From: a bacterium
GTDB taxonomy: Bacteria; Vulcanimicrobiota; JABDET01
Assembly: GCA_021817145.1 (NCBI GenBank)
Contig: JAKAVV010000006.1
Location: 1 to 64,000 of the forward strand
Reading direction: 5' to 3'
Length of the DNA: 64,000 nucleotides
Every line of letters begins with the position of its first letter. Position 1 is the first letter of the stretch. Under the pieces are notes generated by a model. The model was not told the origin of the DNA. It saw only the letters and a program-made list of their open reading frames with translations, and did no database searches. The position numbers and the translations under genes were made by a program. Positions 52,991 to 63,698 of this stretch are shown piece after piece.

Positions 52991-53815
52991 TCAATGCGCG
53001 GATATGCCAAGACCTCTCAGCAGGTGACTTACACGCTCATAGGCATCGCGCTGCAGGATCTCCCGGTCATCTCCTGAGCTTTGCTCGAAATCTGCCACGA
53101 ATTTCGGGCCGACATGTTTGGGTGAAGCGAATTTTCGGGCGATTTTTTCAAGCCCTTCCTTGACAAGTGGGTTGCCAAGGTGCGGCTTGAACTCCTCTAT
53201 GAGTTTATTTAAATCGCTATTCCTGAGACAAAAATGAATATCCCAGGCATCTTTCTCCTTCATCCGACCATCTAACGCCATTCCCTTCATCACAATGAAA
53301 GGAACGATGCTTGCCAAGCGAACCTTCACCTCATCCTTTCCTCCACCTGGGAGCTCCCCTTTAATGGTTACTTCCTGGGTCATGTCGAAGGCGATGTCGC
53401 ACCCTCTGGCTTTTCTGGCCCGGACTTCTTGAATTGTCTGGGTGCGGCGCCCTTCACCGGTTCCGCCGTATTCCCCGGCAAGAAAATCAACTTGAACCGT
53501 GATATCTCTCCCTTGAACCTTCACCACCTTGTAGTAAATGAACGGCTGCTCAGCATTTGCCGTGTATCCATGCTCTGACAGTAACTCGTGGATTTTCTTG
53601 TATCCCTCTTCTTTGATTTTCCAATGATTCAAAGCCAAATCAACGTCCGTGCTTCCGATGTGTCTTGGGTTGGCGTTCGGAAACAGAAGATCAGGCACCC
53701 ATCCTCCAACCAGGACGATCCCCTCCTCGTATTCGTGGAGCACGTGGATGATCTCCACGAGAACAGATCTGGCGGCGTTTACCTCATCAGAAAGGTAATC
53801 TACCTGACTTGCCAT
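52991..53815 (-). CDS. AbiEii-like nucleotidyltransferase toxin
   Basis: A 274-residue protein of the nucleotidyltransferase AbiEii/AbiGii type. The active-site pattern is LVGGWVPDLLF (Gly37-Gly38) with STDVDLAL (Asp57, Asp59). A later IVPFIVMKGMALDGRMKEKDAWDIHF matches the family segment in which Lys and Asp-x-x-Asp contact nucleotide. In known type IV systems AbiEii modifies tRNA and arrests growth in phage-infected cells. It overlaps the antitoxin gene by 16 bases and is more GC-rich than the genes to its left. Confidence 0.85.
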   Translation of the reverse strand: MASQVDYLSDEVNAARSVLVEIIHVLHEYEEGIVLVGGWVPDLLFPNANPRHIGSTDVDLALNHWKIKEEGYKKIHELLSEHGYTANAEQPFIYYKVVKVQGRDITVQVDFLAGEYGGTGEGRRTQTIQEVRARKARGCDIAFDMTQEVTIKGELPGGGKDEVKVRLASIVPFIVMKGMALDGRMKEKDAWDIHFCLRNSDLNKLIEEFKPHLGNPLVKEGLEKIARKFASPKHVGPKFVADFEQSSGDDREILQRDAYERVSHLLRGLGISAH

Positions 53816-54867
53816 CGCACCTTCAGTACGGTTTGAAAAATAAACATGGCTGCTTCACTCCCACGCATCGGAATCTTGGTCAGATCCAAATAGTTTTGGA
53901 CCGATGATACGACTGTCAATTCGTCCAATTTTTCTTTACCATAAAAGAGCCCTTCATCATAGGGTTTGAGAAGCACCACATTTGCCCCTGATGAAACGGT
54001 CTTGAGACCAACCCTATTGGCGACGATCTGGGGATCCCCATCCACATACACGTAAACGCGCTGATATTTAATATGAGGCGCACGCCGCGCCGCAGCCGAG
54101 AATCCAGTAAACGCATAGACGAGTTCCTCTTTGCGGCAAGCTTCCGCAATTTTTCTTTCGATCTCGTTCACGGAGTCCATGGAATAATACTCTGTAGGGG
54201 CGCTTTGTGAAAACTTGTAATTTTTTTCCCACTCCAGCAAAAGCAGCACAGGGTTGTTAAGATAGAACCCTTCCTTTTCAACAGTAATCCATTCCCGATC
54301 TAAAAGCAAACGCTTTACGTTGTTCACGAGTCCAAGGCTGACATTCGCCTCCGCCTCCAGCTCTTGCTGCTTCCACCTTTTCTCTGGATTCTCCAAAAGT
54401 ACGCGCAGAATTCGTTCCGCCTTTGGGGAGTAAAGTGTGCGAAGATCGCGCTTCTCGGCAAAGATGTTTCGCTGCCCTTTTTTTTCGATATACACCTGGT
54501 CGAAGGTAAGTCTGCCATTCCCGGAAAGATCCACGTACCCTACCCCTGCCTCGCGACAGATTTCAGCCGATGCCTCTGAAATGAATGGAGCGACAACCAC
54601 TCCGCAGCTGTCCGGCAAGTTTGGGGTCATGAGCAGCAGCTGGTTAATGGCCTCCCTGGTCACTCTGGGTTGTCCAGTGTTCTTTGCCACTAGGAGCAGA
54701 TAGATCTCCTTGCTAGCCGAATTGACCCGTAGAATTGCATCAGCCTGAAGATCTCTCTTTAGGGGTAACTGTTTGGCCTCGCCAATCTGTAAAAAAGGGA
54801 CATCTGAGAGGCACTTTTTTATCGCCTCGATTCCATTCTGCAGAAGTTCTTGTTCACTAATTTTCAT
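53800..54867 (-). CDS. AbiEi-like antitoxin/regulator
   Basis: A 355-residue DNA-binding partner. Residues about 40-140 resemble a restriction-endonuclease-like fold (LQADAILRVNSASKEIYLLL ... GVGYVDLSGNGRLTF). Residues about 150-215 form a winged helix (SPKAERILRVLLENPEKRWKQQELEAEANVSLGLVNNVKRLLL). The rest is the AbiEi-type C-terminal domain. It is larger than the roughly 200-300 residue classical AbiEi. The two palindromes upstream of its start fit autorepression, as known for AbiEi. Confidence 0.83.
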   Translation of the reverse strand: MKISEQELLQNGIEAIKKCLSDVPFLQIGEAKQLPLKRDLQADAILRVNSASKEIYLLLVAKNTGQPRVTREAINQLLLMTPNLPDSCGVVVAPFISEASAEICREAGVGYVDLSGNGRLTFDQVYIEKKGQRNIFAEKRDLRTLYSPKAERILRVLLENPEKRWKQQELEAEANVSLGLVNNVKRLLLDREWITVEKEGFYLNNPVLLLLEWEKNYKFSQSAPTEYYSMDSVNEIERKIAEACRKEELVYAFTGFSAAARRAPHIKYQRVYVYVDGDPQIVANRVGLKTVSSGANVVLLKPYDEGLFYGKEKLDELTVVSSVQNYLDLTKIPMRGSEAAMFIFQTVLKVRWQVR

Positions 54868-56278: not shown

Positions 56279-56527
56279 ATGAATCAGCATTATTCGCCTG
56301 AAGAGAAAGTAAAGATTTTAGAAGAGGGAGAAAAAGCAGGGGTCAGTGTGGCAGAGGTGTGCCGCCGGTATCAGATTCCCACCACCACTTATTTTACCTG
56401 GAGGAAAGAAGCTCGAGAAGCGATTAAAGCGCATTTTAAGGAGGAAGAAGCGGAACCAAAAGTTAGAAAGGAAAGCAGTATGAAAAAAGAAAAAATCATA
56501 CAAAGAAAAAATCATCAAAAAGTCTAA
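56279..56527 (+). mobile_element. IS3-family transposase OrfA, orphan
   Basis: An 82-residue protein beginning NQHYSPEEKVKILEEGEKAG, VSVAEVCRRYQIPTTTYFTW and KEAREAIKAH, the IS3/IS911 OrfA helix-turn-helix (HTH_Tnp_1). AAGGAGGAAAA precedes the ATG. No OrfB (DDE integrase) follows, and the tail is disturbed by a 16-base insertion relative to the remnant at 55155. It is a dead element end. Confidence 0.8.
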
Positions 56528-56607: not shown

Positions 56608-57825
56608 TTGAACAAGAAATGTCAAAAAGCAAAGGTTCAGGAACTTCGGCTGCCTCCTGATGTCTCAAGTTGGGCAGGACATGTAAATGGATGCCAGATT
56701 TCCCTACGAGACTCGCTCCAGCGAAAGGTGCGGAAAGATGGTTCTTTGGAGGATCTAGCGCTTATCAGGGCTGTTAAAGGACTGCTCCCTTGCCCTGTGA
56801 CAGCTTACCAGCTCCCGGAGCGAGTTCTCCTTAAATTTTACTTATATGGAGGGAATTTTTCGCTCAAGATCGGCAACATCGACGGAGAAGACAGCAAGGA
56901 AATCAGATATTTTGAAAAAAATCGTGATCAGTCTAGCAGCTTGAATCATGCTGCCAGAATTTATTGGGTGGTCCTGCAGAAGGATGGAGATTCAGGTTGG
57001 AAAGGGTCCCATTTGTGGTTCAATCTTATCAGTGACTTCGTCCTGAAAAGGCAAAGGGCTGAAACCGAGCGCTTCAAATGGATCCGGAAAAAACTCTTTG
57101 ATAGGATCGGGTATCACAAGTTCAGGCTCCCAAACCCCACAGGAGAGCCGGACTTGCGCATCGAACCGGCAAACAGCACTTTTTTCATCCGCCCGATAAC
57201 GCTTGAGAATTTAACCTCGGAAATTCAGGAAGATGCAAGTGTCCTTCGCGTTGTACAGGAAGAGGTGGAGAGGATTGTCCAGCGTGTGAGGCAGCTTTAC
57301 CTTTTTGGATGGGAGCAGTGGGAATTTTTTACGGTGGCCGAGCATTATGCGGTTCTGGCTCTGGAAACCTCCTTTCGTAAGCTTTACGAGGCTTGGCTTG
57401 GGAGAGATAATGTCCGCATCAATGCCAGCAGGAAGGAGGACGGCACCCTAGTTGAACTTGACAGCCCGCCGCAATATGAAGCCATTCGAAAGTTGGTTCA
57501 GAAATATCAGCTTCGTTCCGTTGAATTGAAGGGTTATCCTTTTCCGGGAAGCAAGCCTAAACTTTTGGATCATGCTGTGCAAATTGGTGTTCTTACGCCA
57601 TCGGAGTGCGAAGATGGAAGATTTCTCTTCAGTCTGAGGGACAATTTTTCGCATCCCGAGGACAACCAGGTTAGTTTTAAAACCCGGGCGGAAGACCATA
57701 TCTCTGATGCGGTCAAATTAATCAACCTGACATGGGGGCGGCTGCGCGGGAAAATCCCTGCCGCTTGCGAGGACGAGGAAAGCTGGCTGCAGCGTTACCT
57801 CGATGAAGTGCAGGTTCCCCAGTGA
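56608..57825 (+). CDS. Unknown protein with C-terminal HEPN-like domain
   Basis: A 405-residue cytoplasmic protein, started at TTG 56608 with AAGGAG about 13 bases upstream (start uncertain). I recognise no known family. The C-terminal half reads like a HEPN domain: FFTVAEHYAVLALETSFRKLYEAW, then SLRDNFSHPEDN with Arg344-x4-His349, the RNase motif, then DHISDAVKLINLTWGRLRG. The N-terminal 200 residues are a mixed alpha/beta region with a conserved-looking YGGNFSLKIGNIDGED. The next gene starts in GTGA at its stop, so the two are coupled. Confidence 0.7.
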   Translation: MNKKCQKAKVQELRLPPDVSSWAGHVNGCQISLRDSLQRKVRKDGSLEDLALIRAVKGLLPCPVTAYQLPERVLLKFYLYGGNFSLKIGNIDGEDSKEIRYFEKNRDQSSSLNHAARIYWVVLQKDGDSGWKGSHLWFNLISDFVLKRQRAETERFKWIRKKLFDRIGYHKFRLPNPTGEPDLRIEPANSTFFIRPITLENLTSEIQEDASVLRVVQEEVERIVQRVRQLYLFGWEQWEFFTVAEHYAVLALETSFRKLYEAWLGRDNVRINASRKEDGTLVELDSPPQYEAIRKLVQKYQLRSVELKGYPFPGSKPKLLDHAVQIGVLTPSECEDGRFLFSLRDNFSHPEDNQVSFKTRAEDHISDAVKLINLTWGRLRGKIPAACEDEESWLQRYLDEVQVPQ

Positions 57826-58466
57826 AAGAAGAATATGATTTCAGGTTTCAGGGACTTGATCTGGTGCAGGATTCAGCCAGGGTAAGGAAGCTGCGAGCTG
57901 CCCTCCTTGAGCTTGCAGGCGGGTTTACCGAGATCAATCAGGGAACCTTGACCGATCTAATTCCAGGCAATGGGCTCGGTTACATCGCTGCCCTTGATGA
58001 TCATAAAAAACTGGAGGAGCTGAACCAGAGGCTTGAGGGGCTTGCCAAAGCATGGAATCTTCCTGTTCCGTCAATTTCCCCCGCTTCTGATGGGCCGCGT
58101 TCCCACTGTGCCTTTTTCTTGATTCCGAGTTTGACCAACCGGGATAAAACCGGTCATCGGCGTGATCTTTTTTCGCCTGAAAAGTGGGCGTACATTAAGG
58201 AAGCTTTGCAGGGAAAGCTCTCCTATCCCGTTCAACTGGTTTACGGCGAATGGCTGCCACAGGATTCTTCACGGGGCGTTGATCAGGACGCCTCCTTCAT
58301 TTTTGTTTTTAAGCTGGCATCCGGGAAAGAGGTGGAGGAAATGTGCCGGTTCATAGAGCGGGAAATCTTTGATGGGGGGAAAGAGTGCGATCAGGAAACG
58401 ATTTACCTGTCAGTTGGGGGTATGGGCACCTATGTTTACGATCCTTCTGCAAGTGGCGATTCCTGA
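57822..58466 (+). CDS. Unknown partner protein of the HEPN-like gene
   Basis: A 214-residue cytoplasmic protein starting with GTG that overlaps the upstream stop by four bases. It has an N-terminal helical part (LRAALLELAGGFTEINQGTL), a GNGLGYIAALDDHKKLEELN segment and a beta-rich second half (HCAFFLIPSL, GKLSYPVQLVYGEWLP). I do not recognise it. Strict coupling suggests it binds or controls the HEPN-like protein, possibly as antitoxin; this is inference. Confidence 0.65.
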   Translation: MKEEYDFRFQGLDLVQDSARVRKLRAALLELAGGFTEINQGTLTDLIPGNGLGYIAALDDHKKLEELNQRLEGLAKAWNLPVPSISPASDGPRSHCAFFLIPSLTNRDKTGHRRDLFSPEKWAYIKEALQGKLSYPVQLVYGEWLPQDSSRGVDQDASFIFVFKLASGKEVEEMCRFIEREIFDGGKECDQETIYLSVGGMGTYVYDPSASGDS

Positions 58467-58493
58467 TATGGTTTGCATGAGCTAACAAACTAG

Positions 58494-58522
58494 TTGACAA
58501 ATGCAAACTTCTGCGTTATATT
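58494..58522 (+). promoter_or_regulatory. Sigma-70 promoter
   Basis: TTGACA (58494-58499), 17-base spacer, TATATT (58517-58522); a TATAAT also occurs at 58522-58527. The HTH gene ATG at 58543 lies about 15 bases after the predicted transcription start. Confidence 0.75.
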
Positions 58523-58542: not shown

Positions 58543-59031
58543 ATGGACACTCTATATAAAACAATCGCAGAGGAGGAAATAGATACGAGTTCCTTTCTTC
58601 CAGAGGAAAAGCGGTTTCTTGGGGAGATGATCCTCAAATCGAAGAGCAGCAGCTACCTTGATTTCGAAAACCAGCTGACCGAACCGGATTCCCCTATCTT
58701 TTCACACGCCAAGCGCCTGGGCAAGCCGGTTTCAGAAACCCCTCTTTACAAAATTTGCGAGGATTTAGCCACCCGATTGGGGATCCGGCAGGGGTATCTG
58801 GTTCGCGAAGAGGTTGTTCCCTTTCCGGCTGGCGAATCCGCCGAACGAAAGGAATTAACCACAGGCCAGGTGGCCGAACTTGCAGGGTGCACCCGGGAAG
58901 CGGTACGCAAAGCCATTCGCGAGGGTCGTCTTCGTGCCCGCAGGGTCGGGCGGTTTTCTTGGGTATGGGAGAACGATGCGCAGGCTTTCGCGGCACGGAG
59001 GGGGCCGCTTGCTGCCTCCCACAGGCATTGA
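58543..59031 (+). CDS. HTH protein with excisionase-like C-terminus
   Basis: A 162-residue protein; the ATG at 58543 follows a GGTGGTGATCGGA purine-rich stretch. Residues 1-95 are helical and unrecognised. The C-terminus (LTTGQVAELAGCTREAVRKA, IREGRLRARRVGRFSWVW) is a MerR/excisionase-type HTH_17 domain that binds DNA. It has its own promoter and is followed by the DUF1828 scrap, so it may be the regulator of the cassette downstream or left from a mobile element. Confidence 0.72.
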   Translation: MDTLYKTIAEEEIDTSSFLPEEKRFLGEMILKSKSSSYLDFENQLTEPDSPIFSHAKRLGKPVSETPLYKICEDLATRLGIRQGYLVREEVVPFPAGESAERKELTTGQVAELAGCTREAVRKAIREGRLRARRVGRFSWVWENDAQAFAARRGPLAASHRH

Positions 59032-59037
59032 TTTCGC

Positions 59038-59174
59038 GGAGATCCCATTCGAACGCGGTGAAAGCATTCTTGGCTGTTCCGGCGGGTGCGGCGCCCTGAT
59101 TTTCACACTAGGCATCCGAATCGAAGCGCGTTGGTGTATGTCATGAGCAAGGGAAGCCGAAACGTGGCGAAGGG
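59038..59174 (+). pseudogene. DUF1828/1829 gene fragment
   Basis: A 137-base segment matching 60126-60263 at about 80%, the middle of the intact DUF1828-type gene. A one-base deletion breaks the frame; the part after it still reads RRPDFHTRHPNRSALVYVMS. It is the residue of a second copy of the cassette. Confidence 0.8.
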
Positions 59175-59190
59175 CCTGGCAGAACTCCTG

Positions 59191-59219
59191 TTGATCGCGG
59201 GACCGGAATGTGTTACAAT
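59191..59219 (+). promoter_or_regulatory. Putative sigma-70 promoter
   Basis: TTGATC (59191-59196), 17-base spacer, TACAAT (59214-59219), about 27 bases before the ATG at 59246. It lies just after the decayed DUF1828 fragment. Confidence 0.6.
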
Positions 59220-59245
59220 TTGGTCTGAGGGATTGGTGCAGTGGC

Positions 59246-59695
59246 ATGACGGAAGCGGAGCTTAAAGTGATTTTATCCGACACGAGCAAGCGCGTTGATG
59301 GGGATATCACGTGGTCAGAAGATGCGGATCACTCCCCTTCGCGAGAATTTCGCGCAAATGTTATTCTGGAAGAGGATAACGCGCTCTTTGTGAAGGGGTC
59401 CTTTAACGCCCTTGCCCAGACCTTGAGCTTTGCATTCATTTACAGGGGAATCGGCAGGATTTATGCGCTGGATCTTGGGAAGGATCACCATAACCCGACA
59501 TGCCAGTATACCGGGGAAGCGCATAAGCACCGCTGGACAGAAAAATTTCGAGACAAGGAGGCTTATGTGCCGCAAGATATTCGATCTTCAGCCGTGGATC
59601 CGGTTGCAGTATGGAAAGAGTTTTGTTCAGAGGCAAAGTTGGTCCACAATGGAACGATGCATGCGCCCCCTCCGCTGCAGATGAGGATGATATGA
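59246..59695 (+). CDS. Small protein of unknown function (possibly DUF6978-like)
   Basis: A 149-residue protein; I use the ATG at 59246 (MTEAELKVILSDTSKRV), twelve codons inside the longest frame. It has a beta-rich core (REFRANVILEEDNALFVKGSF; LSFAFIYRGIGRIYALDLGK) and a His-rich stretch (DHHNP, GEAHKHRWTEKFRDKEAYVP). That layout resembles a family I recall as DUF6978, but I cannot confirm it. Its stop overlaps the DUF1828 start (ATGA), so the two act together. Confidence 0.68.
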   Translation: MTEAELKVILSDTSKRVDGDITWSEDADHSPSREFRANVILEEDNALFVKGSFNALAQTLSFAFIYRGIGRIYALDLGKDHHNPTCQYTGEAHKHRWTEKFRDKEAYVPQDIRSSAVDPVAVWKEFCSEAKLVHNGTMHAPPPLQMRMI

Positions 59696-60459
59696 CGATT
59701 CACTGCGAGGATATTGCTAGAAGGGTCGGTCAGCTTTTTGTGTGCACGACTGTAAATGAGTATTTGAGAATAAGAACCCCTTATCTTTACCCGGATGGCG
59801 ACGTGATTGATTTGTTTATAAAATGGGATGAGCGTCATTTTACCGTGACCGATTTGGGGGAAACCTTGCGCTGGCTCAGCATGCAAATGGTTTCATGGTC
59901 GAAAACGAAAAAGCAGCTTGAACTCATCGGTGATATTTGCTTGACGCATGGAGTTGAGCTGTTTAAAGGAATGCTGACGGCCCGTGCCGCCTCTTTGGAG
60001 GAGGTGGGCGAAGCAGTAACCCGTGTGTCTCAGGCCGCCTTGCGCCTGTCTGATCTCTGGTTTACGTTCCGCGTCAGATCTGTAGAATCTTTGACCGATG
60101 AAGTCGAGGATTTCTTGAAGGAAAAGGAAATTCCATTTGAACGCGGCGAGAGCATACCTGGCCGATCCGGTCGGGTGTGGCGTCCTGATTTTCATACCAG
60201 GCATCCGAATCGGAGCGCACTGGTGTACGTCATGAGCACGGGAAGCCGAAGCGTGGCGAAGGGGATGGTCGAAAGCGTGGTGGCTTCCTGGTACGATCTG
60301 AGCCATTTGAAGCTTGGCAAGGAAGCTTATCATTTCGTTTCGCTGTTTGATGACGCTTACGACGTTTGGAAGGATGAAGATTTCAAGCTAGTGAGCGATC
60401 TGTCAGAGGTCGCTTACTGGTCCAAACCGGATACATTTATGGAGAAGCTGGTCGCGTGA
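59692..60459 (+). CDS. DUF1828/DUF1829 domain protein
   Basis: A 255-residue protein; the ATG at 59692 overlaps the previous stop. The N-terminus (LRIRTPYLYPDGDVIDLFIK, FTVTDLGETLRWLSMQMVSW) matches DUF1828 and the rest (FERGESIPGRSGRVWRPDFH; HFVSLFDDAYDVWKDEDFKL) DUF1829. These domains are frequent on mobile elements and in defence islands; function is unknown. It converges on the 1077-residue gene with 5 bases between. Confidence 0.8.
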   Translation: MTIHCEDIARRVGQLFVCTTVNEYLRIRTPYLYPDGDVIDLFIKWDERHFTVTDLGETLRWLSMQMVSWSKTKKQLELIGDICLTHGVELFKGMLTARAASLEEVGEAVTRVSQAALRLSDLWFTFRVRSVESLTDEVEDFLKEKEIPFERGESIPGRSGRVWRPDFHTRHPNRSALVYVMSTGSRSVAKGMVESVVASWYDLSHLKLGKEAYHFVSLFDDAYDVWKDEDFKLVSDLSEVAYWSKPDTFMEKLVA

Positions 60460-60464
60460 AGGCG

Positions 60465-63400
60465 CTATGATCGGCCTTGATACTTGTTGTAAATATCCAT
60501 AAGGAAATCCTGATCTCTCTTTCCGTAGAGATTGCAAATTTCCTTTGCCAGCTCCGCGGCCTTGTCACCTTGTCTGAAAAGATACTCGACGATTTCACGT
60601 ATGTGCTCCTTGTTATAGTCGGGCGTGAAGTCTTTAAGCATTTCAAGGAAGGCTTTGCCAACGTAGATTGCTGATTGCTGTTTATCCTTTCCCCTGTCCT
60701 TCAGCCTGTTCAGGTACTCGATGAAAAATGGCGAATTGAAATCAATGTGAACATATCGGGCCGACAGCATGAGCCATTTAAAGTTTTCTTTATTGATTTC
60801 CGGCAGAAAAACTGCTAGCTTTCCAAGGTGGGAGAGGATTGCTTGGTCTTCTGAGGTTGGACTGGTTTTAGTTTCGTATTGTTTGTACAAATAACCCCAA
60901 AGGTTTACGATCCGATCTTTCATTTTTCTTTCATCATCTGAAAGGGTGGATTTTGATAGGGTCTCTCTCTGCATCCAGAAAAGGTCGATTAGCATTTTAA
61001 TTTTCTCAGTATCTTTGCTTTGAAGGAGGGAGGAAAGGAAACCATTGTGATTCCCATTGGGAAGTTCCTCAAGCTCAACAAGGTAAGCGCCTGCAATGTG
61101 ATTTACCAAACCCCGAACGGCATCCTTATCTTTGAAGGGGAAGTTGAGAGCTTTTTTGTAATGTTTATTCATTAAGGGGTAAAGTTGTTTTATTGGCTGC
61201 GGAAAAAGGTAGCCCTGCATGAAAGCTGACCAAAGATCATCTTTTAAATCATCATCTTTGAACTTTTTGATTTTTTCTTTTATCCACCCTTCATCCAGGT
61301 AGTAGAGATTCCACATATATTGACCAGCAAGAGTGTAAGCTTCTAAAATCCTTTTTTCCAGTGCCAGATCAAAGCACTCCTTAATCTTGGGAGACCACCG
61401 GACGGTTTTGGTCTTAAGTTTTTCTTTGTTGACGCGTGCGCTGCGTAAGGCAAGAAAAATAAGAGCTGTCAGGATATTCCCTGCTGGAGTGTTCATTGCA
61501 TAGCTTACAGCATCTATGACTTCTTTTTCCTGCTTCACTTGGAGTTTCTCCATTATGAGCAGTAGAATTTCTTGAGCTGATTCCAGGTGCTCAGGAGAAA
61601 AAGCCCACTCGTCTGATTTGGTTCCACCTTGAATAAGCCGACCCACCATGGAAATGATTAAAAGAAGATCAGTATTCCAGAGATTTTTTAACTCAAGTTT
61701 AAATTTACCGTTCCAAAAATCCTCACGATTGATATAGTTCTTAATAAACGAAAGGAGCTTACCCCATTCAAACTGCTTTTCTTTAGATCGCCATGCCTCA
61801 TCAAAGCCCCCAAGGATGGCACGAACCCATACATAAGCAGAATTCAAAAAAACATCTAAATTCTGAATAAAGTATTCAGGCATTTCACGCACCGCTGCCC
61901 TCAGCTCATTGACAAGCCCACCAATGCTGAGATCACCGAATGGATCCTCTGGTTTGAAGTTGGCAAGATAGTTTGCTAAATCTAATGGTGACCTGCTTAG
62001 AATTTCTATTTTCGTCAGCGGTGATTTGCCTGGCCCCACCTGAACGGTACGAGATTCATGCGATGGACGTTTTATGTCCGTCCCTGTTTTTGCTTTGCAT
62101 TCCTCATAAAGTTTTCCAAATTGAGGATCTCTGCTTAGTGCCGAATACCACTTCTGCTTCCATAAGGTTACATATCCCTCTACATTATCCCTAGGAAGGT
62201 ATCGCTGAGGACCTGCTTCTAAAATCTGCTTAACTTGTAGTTTTTGTTTATCGGTAAACTCAGAAACGTGATTTTGAAGGATAGAAAAAAGCTCAACCTC
62301 GAAATCTTGAACATCAAAGATCAACTTACTCTCGGACTGGTTCAAAAAATTCCAGAAAACTTCATTGTAATCATTCCAACATTTGTCAATGACAAATAAA
62401 GCCAAGCGTCGGAAGAAACGATAGGGGTAATCATAACCAAGAAATTTTTCAAAAATTGCCTTGGCTTCTTGAGGAGTCCTTTTGGCTTTTGTTAGAAAAA
62501 TGTCTCTAAGGATTACGGCAAAAATTTCTTTTGTGTCGTCAATAGCTTGTCCGGGATTGCTCTCGAGATCTTTTAGCCAAATAAATGAGTAATCTTGAAA
62601 AAGATTATCATAAAGGCGACCTAAGTGCTTTTTTAAGTCTGTTTGAATAGCTAAGATTAGTTCCTGGTCTGGCTGCAGCGTTTCCAGGGTTCGTTTCCAG
62701 GCTTTCTCCATAAACTCGCTGCCCGTATGGCAATTTTTGATTTCGAGATCAGCGATGGGCGGAGATTCTGGGGGCAAGATATTATCCATGGACAGTTCTT
62801 CTGGAGGACATTCAATGGTTTTTGTTTTTTTTCTAATCTCAATTCTGAAGCTGCCTTCACCGAGATGTCGGCAGGTGAACCAGTATGTGGAGTCACCAAT
62901 GTCTATAGAATCGGCGCTCTTCTCATGCTCCAATGCAAAAATACTTTTTAAACGATTCGCTATGATATAGGCGGCATTAGCCGTGCAGCATTCGCCAATC
63001 TTTTCGGCATTCTTTTGGTTGATAAAAGATTCCCAAAGCCAATAAGGATCAATGAGTGTTTTTACATGTTTTCCCCTGAGAAAAGTCGTGTTGATTTCCT
63101 TTTGAGCTTGAGGGTCTTTGAATAATCTGTACTCCGTAACGTAGTAAAGAATTTTTTCGGCTTTTTCAATATCCTGTGGCGATGGATTATTGCAGAGAAA
63201 TTTCGGCAGAAGTTTTGTCACAATATCCGAGCCTTGGAGGATTGTATCGAACCTAGAATCAAGCCATAGTGGGATCAAATCGATGATCTTGAGGCCAATT
63301 TCATCGTTCGGGATGTTGACAAGGATTTTAACGAAGGAATAGATTATGTAGGGATTATCAAGCTTTCTCTTACTGACTTTTTCAATCAGCGACAACAGCT

Positions 63401-63698
63401 CCTCTATGTACTTTTCATTTCCGGGGGCTGCAAGTTGATCTGAAATTCGCTCCAGATACGGAAGAACATTCCATCTCGGCACGGTAAAATGTCCGGGTCT
63501 ATCCGCAGGCTTTGGTGCAGGGGCATTATTTGGGTCAAAGTAATTTAAAAGTTTCAACGGAACAAACCACTTGAGGTCACTCTTCTTTCTGAAAAAGTAG
63601 TCTTGGTACTCCTCTCTCTTTTCAATGGTATCAAGGATCTCTATTTCTTTTTCGTCTAGGTACTTCTTGAGCTGATCTTTAAGTGCAGCTTCGATCAT
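60465..63698 (-). CDS. Large helical-repeat protein of unknown function
   Basis: A 1077-residue cytoplasmic protein, nearly all alpha-helical, rich in Leu/Trp/Lys and resembling a HEAT/TPR-like solenoid. There is no P-loop, nuclease or helicase motif that I can see. Short recurring features are W-x-W-like turns (WDIHFC absent here; KLKTKTVRWSPKIKECF, LNFPFKDKDAVRGLVNHIAG). It begins 3 bases after the upstream partial gene, with its ribosome site (GATGAGGTG) inside that gene. Size, island context and coupling suggest a defence effector or sensor; this is inference. Confidence 0.72.
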   Translation of the reverse strand: MIEAALKDQLKKYLDEKEIEILDTIEKREEYQDYFFRKKSDLKWFVPLKLLNYFDPNNAPAPKPADRPGHFTVPRWNVLPYLERISDQLAAPGNEKYIEELLSLIEKVSKRKLDNPYIIYSFVKILVNIPNDEIGLKIIDLIPLWLDSRFDTILQGSDIVTKLLPKFLCNNPSPQDIEKAEKILYYVTEYRLFKDPQAQKEINTTFLRGKHVKTLIDPYWLWESFINQKNAEKIGECCTANAAYIIANRLKSIFALEHEKSADSIDIGDSTYWFTCRHLGEGSFRIEIRKKTKTIECPPEELSMDNILPPESPPIADLEIKNCHTGSEFMEKAWKRTLETLQPDQELILAIQTDLKKHLGRLYDNLFQDYSFIWLKDLESNPGQAIDDTKEIFAVILRDIFLTKAKRTPQEAKAIFEKFLGYDYPYRFFRRLALFVIDKCWNDYNEVFWNFLNQSESKLIFDVQDFEVELFSILQNHVSEFTDKQKLQVKQILEAGPQRYLPRDNVEGYVTLWKQKWYSALSRDPQFGKLYEECKAKTGTDIKRPSHESRTVQVGPGKSPLTKIEILSRSPLDLANYLANFKPEDPFGDLSIGGLVNELRAAVREMPEYFIQNLDVFLNSAYVWVRAILGGFDEAWRSKEKQFEWGKLLSFIKNYINREDFWNGKFKLELKNLWNTDLLLIISMVGRLIQGGTKSDEWAFSPEHLESAQEILLLIMEKLQVKQEKEVIDAVSYAMNTPAGNILTALIFLALRSARVNKEKLKTKTVRWSPKIKECFDLALEKRILEAYTLAGQYMWNLYYLDEGWIKEKIKKFKDDDLKDDLWSAFMQGYLFPQPIKQLYPLMNKHYKKALNFPFKDKDAVRGLVNHIAGAYLVELEELPNGNHNGFLSSLLQSKDTEKIKMLIDLFWMQRETLSKSTLSDDERKMKDRIVNLWGYLYKQYETKTSPTSEDQAILSHLGKLAVFLPEINKENFKWLMLSARYVHIDFNSPFFIEYLNRLKDRGKDKQQSAIYVGKAFLEMLKDFTPDYNKEHIREIVEYLFRQGDKAAELAKEICNLYGKRDQDFLMDIYNKYQGRS

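Follow-up and report, generated by a model that had tools for sequence, protein, structure and literature searches.

Two overlapping genes, P1 and P2, sit in a defence-gene region of the window (the whole 64,000-nucleotide stretch of bacterial DNA analysed here), and the question they raise is whether they work as a pair or whether P1 acts alone. A preliminary description had set them down as two reading frames overlapping in GTGA. Both frames are there, and P1 stop and P2 start share that tetranucleotide at 57822-57825. In-frame codon-bias scores, trained on eight long ORFs of the window, were 0.093 for P1 and 0.135 for P2, with negative scores in the other five frames of each; because the bias exceeds that of all five alternative frames, both genes are probably coding. 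Their G+C content of 49–51%, against a window mean of 42%, resembles that of most adjoining defence genes and suggests acquired DNA.

No promoter-like site turned up immediately before P1 when the sequence was scanned for promoters. The 3' end of the P1-P2 unit is marked by a combined inverted repeat and promoter element (58471..58522) that begins just past P2. The first ATG of the following HTH gene, at 58501, falls within this promoter, so that the real start of the gene is probably the ATG at 58543, and the promoter would drive the HTH gene as a separate transcription unit. P1-P2 is therefore probably a unit of its own, upstream of and apart from the HTH and M24 genes. Promoter and repeat, placed before an excisionase-type HTH gene, look like an autoregulated operator.

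Table 1. Features of P1, P2 and the surrounding island (window positions unless a contig handle is given).
Feature	Position	Strand	Remarks
AbiE-like pair	52991-54867	-	AbiEi_2-domain protein and nucleotidyltransferase-like partner; left side of window island
Transposase HTH fragment	56279-56527	+	82 aa, IS66/IS3 TnpA-like; directly upstream of P1
P1	56608..57825	+	TTG start, 405 aa; unnamed family, novel N-terminal region and predicted C-terminal HEPN domain; ORF and full-length homologues
N-terminal region of P1	56608..57252	+	about residues 1-215; no library match
HEPN domain of P1 (predicted)	57253..57747	+	about residues 216-380; AlphaFold core and Foldseek matches
E253-x3-R257 (E253-T-S-F-R257)	57364..57378	+	second HEPN signature Ex3[KR]; E and R invariant in three homologues
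R344-D-N-F-S-H349	57637..57654	+	HEPN Rx4H catalytic motif (predicted); aligned in three homologues and distant relative L025
P2	57822..58466	+	GTG start, 214 aa; translationally coupled to P1; without known relative
8-bp inverted repeat GTTTGCAT/ATGCAAAC	58471-58478 and 58501-58508	+	overlaps promoter; read directly from sequence
Consensus sigma-70 promoter TTGACA-17-TATATT	58494-58522	+	near-perfect; promoter scan
Excisionase-type HTH regulator	58543..59031	+	TIGR01764 above cut-off; PADLOC mad1 8e-7
PDC-M24A (DUF6978) and PDC-M24B (DUF1828) defence-candidate pair	59210..60459	+	PADLOC 2e-62 and 3e-110
Split Dsr1-like system	60465-63698 and L027:203-1264 (G000:C1:63702-64763)	-	two adjacent genes
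DrmD-like helicase, DrmMI-like methylase, HamA (Hachiman) homologues in a row	L027:3418-11988 (G000:C1:66917-75487)		about 3-11.5 kb past window end

Relatives of P1 were few. Neither protein matched Pfam, NCBIfam, PADLOC or PHROGs at E≤1, and neither they nor a P1-family profile had a sequence match in the PDB. Searches of both against 147–148 other genomes of the window organism's phylum gave no believable match, and tblastn against plasmids and phages gave no relative. We scanned 85k genomes at the DNA level for the pattern A-x3-G-x-L ... L-xx-LR[DN]-xx-S-H-P at the P1 spacing and found six matching loci. Five were unrelated to P1; the sixth, in Desulfosporosinus lacus DSM 15449, is a 405-aa ORF with 30% identity to P1 over 411 aa (E 1e-45). 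A profile of P1 and the D. lacus protein, run against 399 genomes of the D. lacus phylum, led to a 406-aa homologue in genome G305, 68% identical to the D. lacus protein and from the same order, in which these two are the only members among 74 genomes. Profile searches of 324 genomes from the phylum of a Planctomycetes locus, and of 399 from that of a Rhizobium locus, returned no full-length members. By these comparisons the family appears rare yet spans at least two phyla, on a sample of three members, two of which share an order.

More distantly, the profile matched an uncharacterised 224-aa protein (L025:1342-2016) at the first helix of the family, with an hhalign E of 8.8e-6 over 75 columns. 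This protein has its own R-x4-H (RNDYAH) and E-x3-K, which fall on the P1 motifs in the alignment. With Pfam HEPN_Apea it gives a weak match that misses the cut-off (E 0.009); a 37%-identical relative lies on a Paraburkholderia sabiae plasmid. Looking for HEPN_Apea members within the window organism's phylum turned up none. Nothing came of single-sequence P1 patterns run on viral and genome contigs, of patterns from an artificially varied alignment, or of profile-derived patterns on viral contigs. We dropped a weak Embleya plasmid match, which was antisense to other ORFs, and a match in L024 with no convincing ORF at the matched site.

HEPN proteins are marked by Rx4-6H, in which N, D or H follows the R, and by Ex3[KR] (Anantharaman et al. 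2013, PMC3710099). P1 has both: R344 is followed by D, which is typical (PMC3710099), and Ex3[KR] lies in an upstream helix, predicted at residues 237-264. The preliminary description had pointed to an AEHYA...ALE helix, found at A244-E-H-Y-A-V-L-A-L-E253, and to the Arg344-x4-His349 motif, likewise in place. With 33 Arg and 8 His in 405 aa, one R-x4-H would be unremarkable by itself. It exceeds chance because it is the sole R-x4-H in each of the three family proteins and holds the same aligned position, although the others are only ∼30–33% identical to P1; E253, R257, R344 and H349 are invariant across the three.

The fold points the same way. An AlphaFold model of P1, built from the three-sequence alignment, was confident only at residues 250-340 (pLDDT 74-85) and poor outside this HEPN core, N-terminal half included (mean pLDDT 53); its helices span 237-264, 290-299, 316-325, 331-345 and 354-379. 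Foldseek against the PDB ranked HEPN toxin chains (MntA-HepT, SO_3166) at all of positions 1-9 and the AF_0298 HEPN protein at 15. The best match had an E-value of 0.065, a probability of 0.95 and a TM-score by target of about 0.5, and none had an E-value <0.001; despite this, so consistent a list is unlikely to arise by chance. The helical bundle predicted here, taken with the two signatures and the alignment to L025, makes it very probable that the C-terminal domain is HEPN, and upholds the HEPN call of the preliminary description.

The first ∼200 residues of P1 had been described as matching nothing known, and every library we searched bears this out. The homologues are 26–27% identical to P1 in this region versus about 43% in the HEPN region, with conserved blocks LPCPV and P-x-GEPDxRI. 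We propose that it is a sensor or regulatory part. In Abi proteins, according to the 2013 survey, HEPN is joined to several N-terminal domains that are unrelated to one another (PMC3710099), and that of P1 looks like one more.

Whether P2 belongs to the system was addressed through the two homologues. Downstream of the D. lacus P1 gene there is no P2-like ORF, only DNA that we read as transposase-like remnants; in G305 there is again none, and a helicase gene follows after about 300 bases. A tblastn search with P2 of the 19 kb around each homologue found nothing, and P2 is absent from both whole genomes. The genes are thus not conserved together in these two homologues, both from one order, and the coupled cassette that had been described does not extend to them. 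From these genome comparisons P2 appears not to be a conserved partner among the P1 members found, although a P1-P2 subgroup nearer the window organism is possible. Weak P2 matches (E 0.01–1 in the phylum, 0.03 in the D. lacus order, 5–10 on plasmids) were short partial alignments and were not accepted; a P2 pattern scan of viral contigs gave nothing. A single-sequence structure model of P2 was alpha/beta at low confidence (pLDDT 46), too poor for its fold matches to Cas6e and S6 to be interpreted; no nucleotidyltransferase was among the 50 best fold matches of this poor model. P2 would be either a local antitoxin or accessory protein, or a chance neighbour; at the window locus it might restrain P1.

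Judged by their neighbours' sequences, all three P1 genes appear to lie in defence islands, and it is chiefly this context that speaks for a role in defence. The D. lacus gene has immediately upstream of it an AbiL-like ATPase, a PHP-ATPase (Ppl-like) and an AbiJ/Abi_C HEPN gene; the G305 gene has as neighbours an integrase, a SIR2-STAND protein and an MkoC-like helicase. The systems surrounding the window gene are listed in Table 1. The transposase fragment upstream of P1 is probably an insertion-sequence remnant. A 111-nt direct repeat, 84% identical, occurs at 59083-59193 and 60172-60282, its first stretch being a broken copy of the M24B (DUF1828) gene end, just upstream of the intact M24A/M24B. 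The split Dsr1-like system consists of a 1077-aa protein matching Dsr1 profile positions 539-1225 (E 8e-137) and, just beyond the window, a 353-aa SIR2 protein matching positions 16-299 (E 9e-53); the Dsr1 profiles matched here are single proteins of ∼1230–1275 aa. Past the window end the island continues with DISARM-like and Hachiman genes.

We consider it reasonably likely that P1 works on its own as an effector of anti-phage abortive infection, a HEPN ribonuclease joined to a novel N-terminal domain in a solo-HEPN design such as ApeA or AbiJ has; the absence of P2 from the genomes of both homologues favours this over a conserved cassette. The N-terminal region would keep P1 silent and respond to infection; HEPN domains would then pair, R344 and H349 of both copies forming a metal-independent active site, and the activated dimer would cut tRNA or mRNA, stopping growth before phage release. 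P2 would be something added at this locus, perhaps to fine-tune P1 or serve as an immunity protein, and the system would not depend on it. Counting against this reading is the tight coupling of P1 to P2 in the window, which a pure single-gene system does not need. Among known systems, DS-11 (CBS-HEPN) is a single-protein HEPN system validated as anti-phage (PMC13092281), and ApeA, PD-T4-2, PD-T4-5 and PD-T7-3 are tabulated as HEPN-bearing (PMC10952713).

The earlier suggestion of a toxin-antitoxin or abortive-infection pair survives as to defence, through the island context, and finds no support in the two homologues as to a conserved pairing with P2. Read as a type II toxin-antitoxin system, P1 would be a constitutively active HEPN RNase that P2, made in fixed ratio by coupled translation, binds and blocks until infection or stress removes it, as in RnlA-RnlB. 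The GTGA overlap of two coding frames fits this, and an N-terminally extended HEPN toxin followed by an antitoxin gene resembles RnlA-RnlB as outlined in PMC5308261. We nevertheless think it unlikely: neither profile nor sequence searches matched RnlA or RnlB, and a constitutive toxin could not persist in the two homologue genomes, where P2 is missing, unless another protein substitutes for the antitoxin. It is weaker than the reading of P1 as a single-protein abortive-infection effector, though possible for the locus in the window. A bolder version, which we likewise hold to be unlikely, makes P1 the type of a new family whose previously undescribed ∼215-residue N-terminal domain senses infection and unleashes the HEPN RNase, with P2 a new, locally acquired inhibitor; if so, some bacteria would pair this HEPN effector with an antitoxin and others would use it alone.

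Two further explanations remove either the pairing or the catalysis. P1 and P2 could be unrelated island genes joined by mobile-element shuffling, their overlap incidental and P2 acting alone or with other neighbours. The transposase-helper fragment just upstream and the broken M24B copy downstream are in keeping with this, as is a P2 that lacks relatives and accompanies P1 at neither of the other loci; yet where a stop and a start overlap by 4 bp, co-expression has usually been selected for, and we regard mere shuffling as very unlikely. P1 might instead be an inactive HEPN that binds RNA or protein, as MtlR does, a regulator and not an RNase. A subset of HEPN families has indeed lost activity (PMC3710099), but R-x4-H and E-x3-R are invariant over homologues of ∼30% identity, unlike in inactive families, which renders this highly improbable.

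A single-protein effector would be of interest beyond this locus. HEPN RNases recur as effectors of bacterial immunity, and their triggers are mostly unknown; the P1 family is conserved at full length across phyla, goes undetected by the current models of Pfam, NCBIfam, PADLOC and PHROG, and offers in its N-terminal domain a candidate new sensor. Loci with and without P2 can be compared directly to see whether an antitoxin is necessary to a HEPN effector.

The best structural matches, HepT of MntA-HepT (7bxo, 6m6w) and SO_3166 (5yep), have the HEPN fold; HepT, however, is a solo domain of ∼130 aa with a nucleotidyltransferase antitoxin, whereas P1 has 405 aa, and P2 cannot be recognised as a nucleotidyltransferase and has no Pfam or NCBIfam match. 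RnlA-RnlB (RNase LS) likewise has a C-terminal HEPN RNase in an N-terminally extended protein, with a partner gene downstream, but P1 and P2 have no Pfam, PADLOC or sequence match to it and the partner of P1 is not conserved. The layout of AbiJ/Abi_C abortive-infection proteins with AbiJ-NTDs, an N-terminal domain and a C-terminal HEPN, is also that of P1, and in D. lacus an AbiJ-like gene (L021:7445-8227) adjoins P1; the P1 family does not align with its product (hhalign probability 0.4), and P1 matches neither PF14355 Abi_C nor PADLOC AbiJ. ApeA is, as P1 is read here, a single-protein defence effector with a large N-terminal domain and a C-terminal HEPN carrying Rx4-6H, and the distant relative L025 weakly matches PF18739. 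P1 and its homologues differ in matching neither HEPN_Apea (PF18739) at E≤10 nor any Pfam or PADLOC ApeA model, and in an unclassified N-terminal domain of ∼215 aa where that of ApeA has ∼300 aa, mostly strands (PMC3710099). DS-11, compared by its description only, differs in its CBS domain, to which P1 has no match; like P1 it is a single HEPN protein, and its extra domain is proposed as a ligand sensor (PMC13092281).
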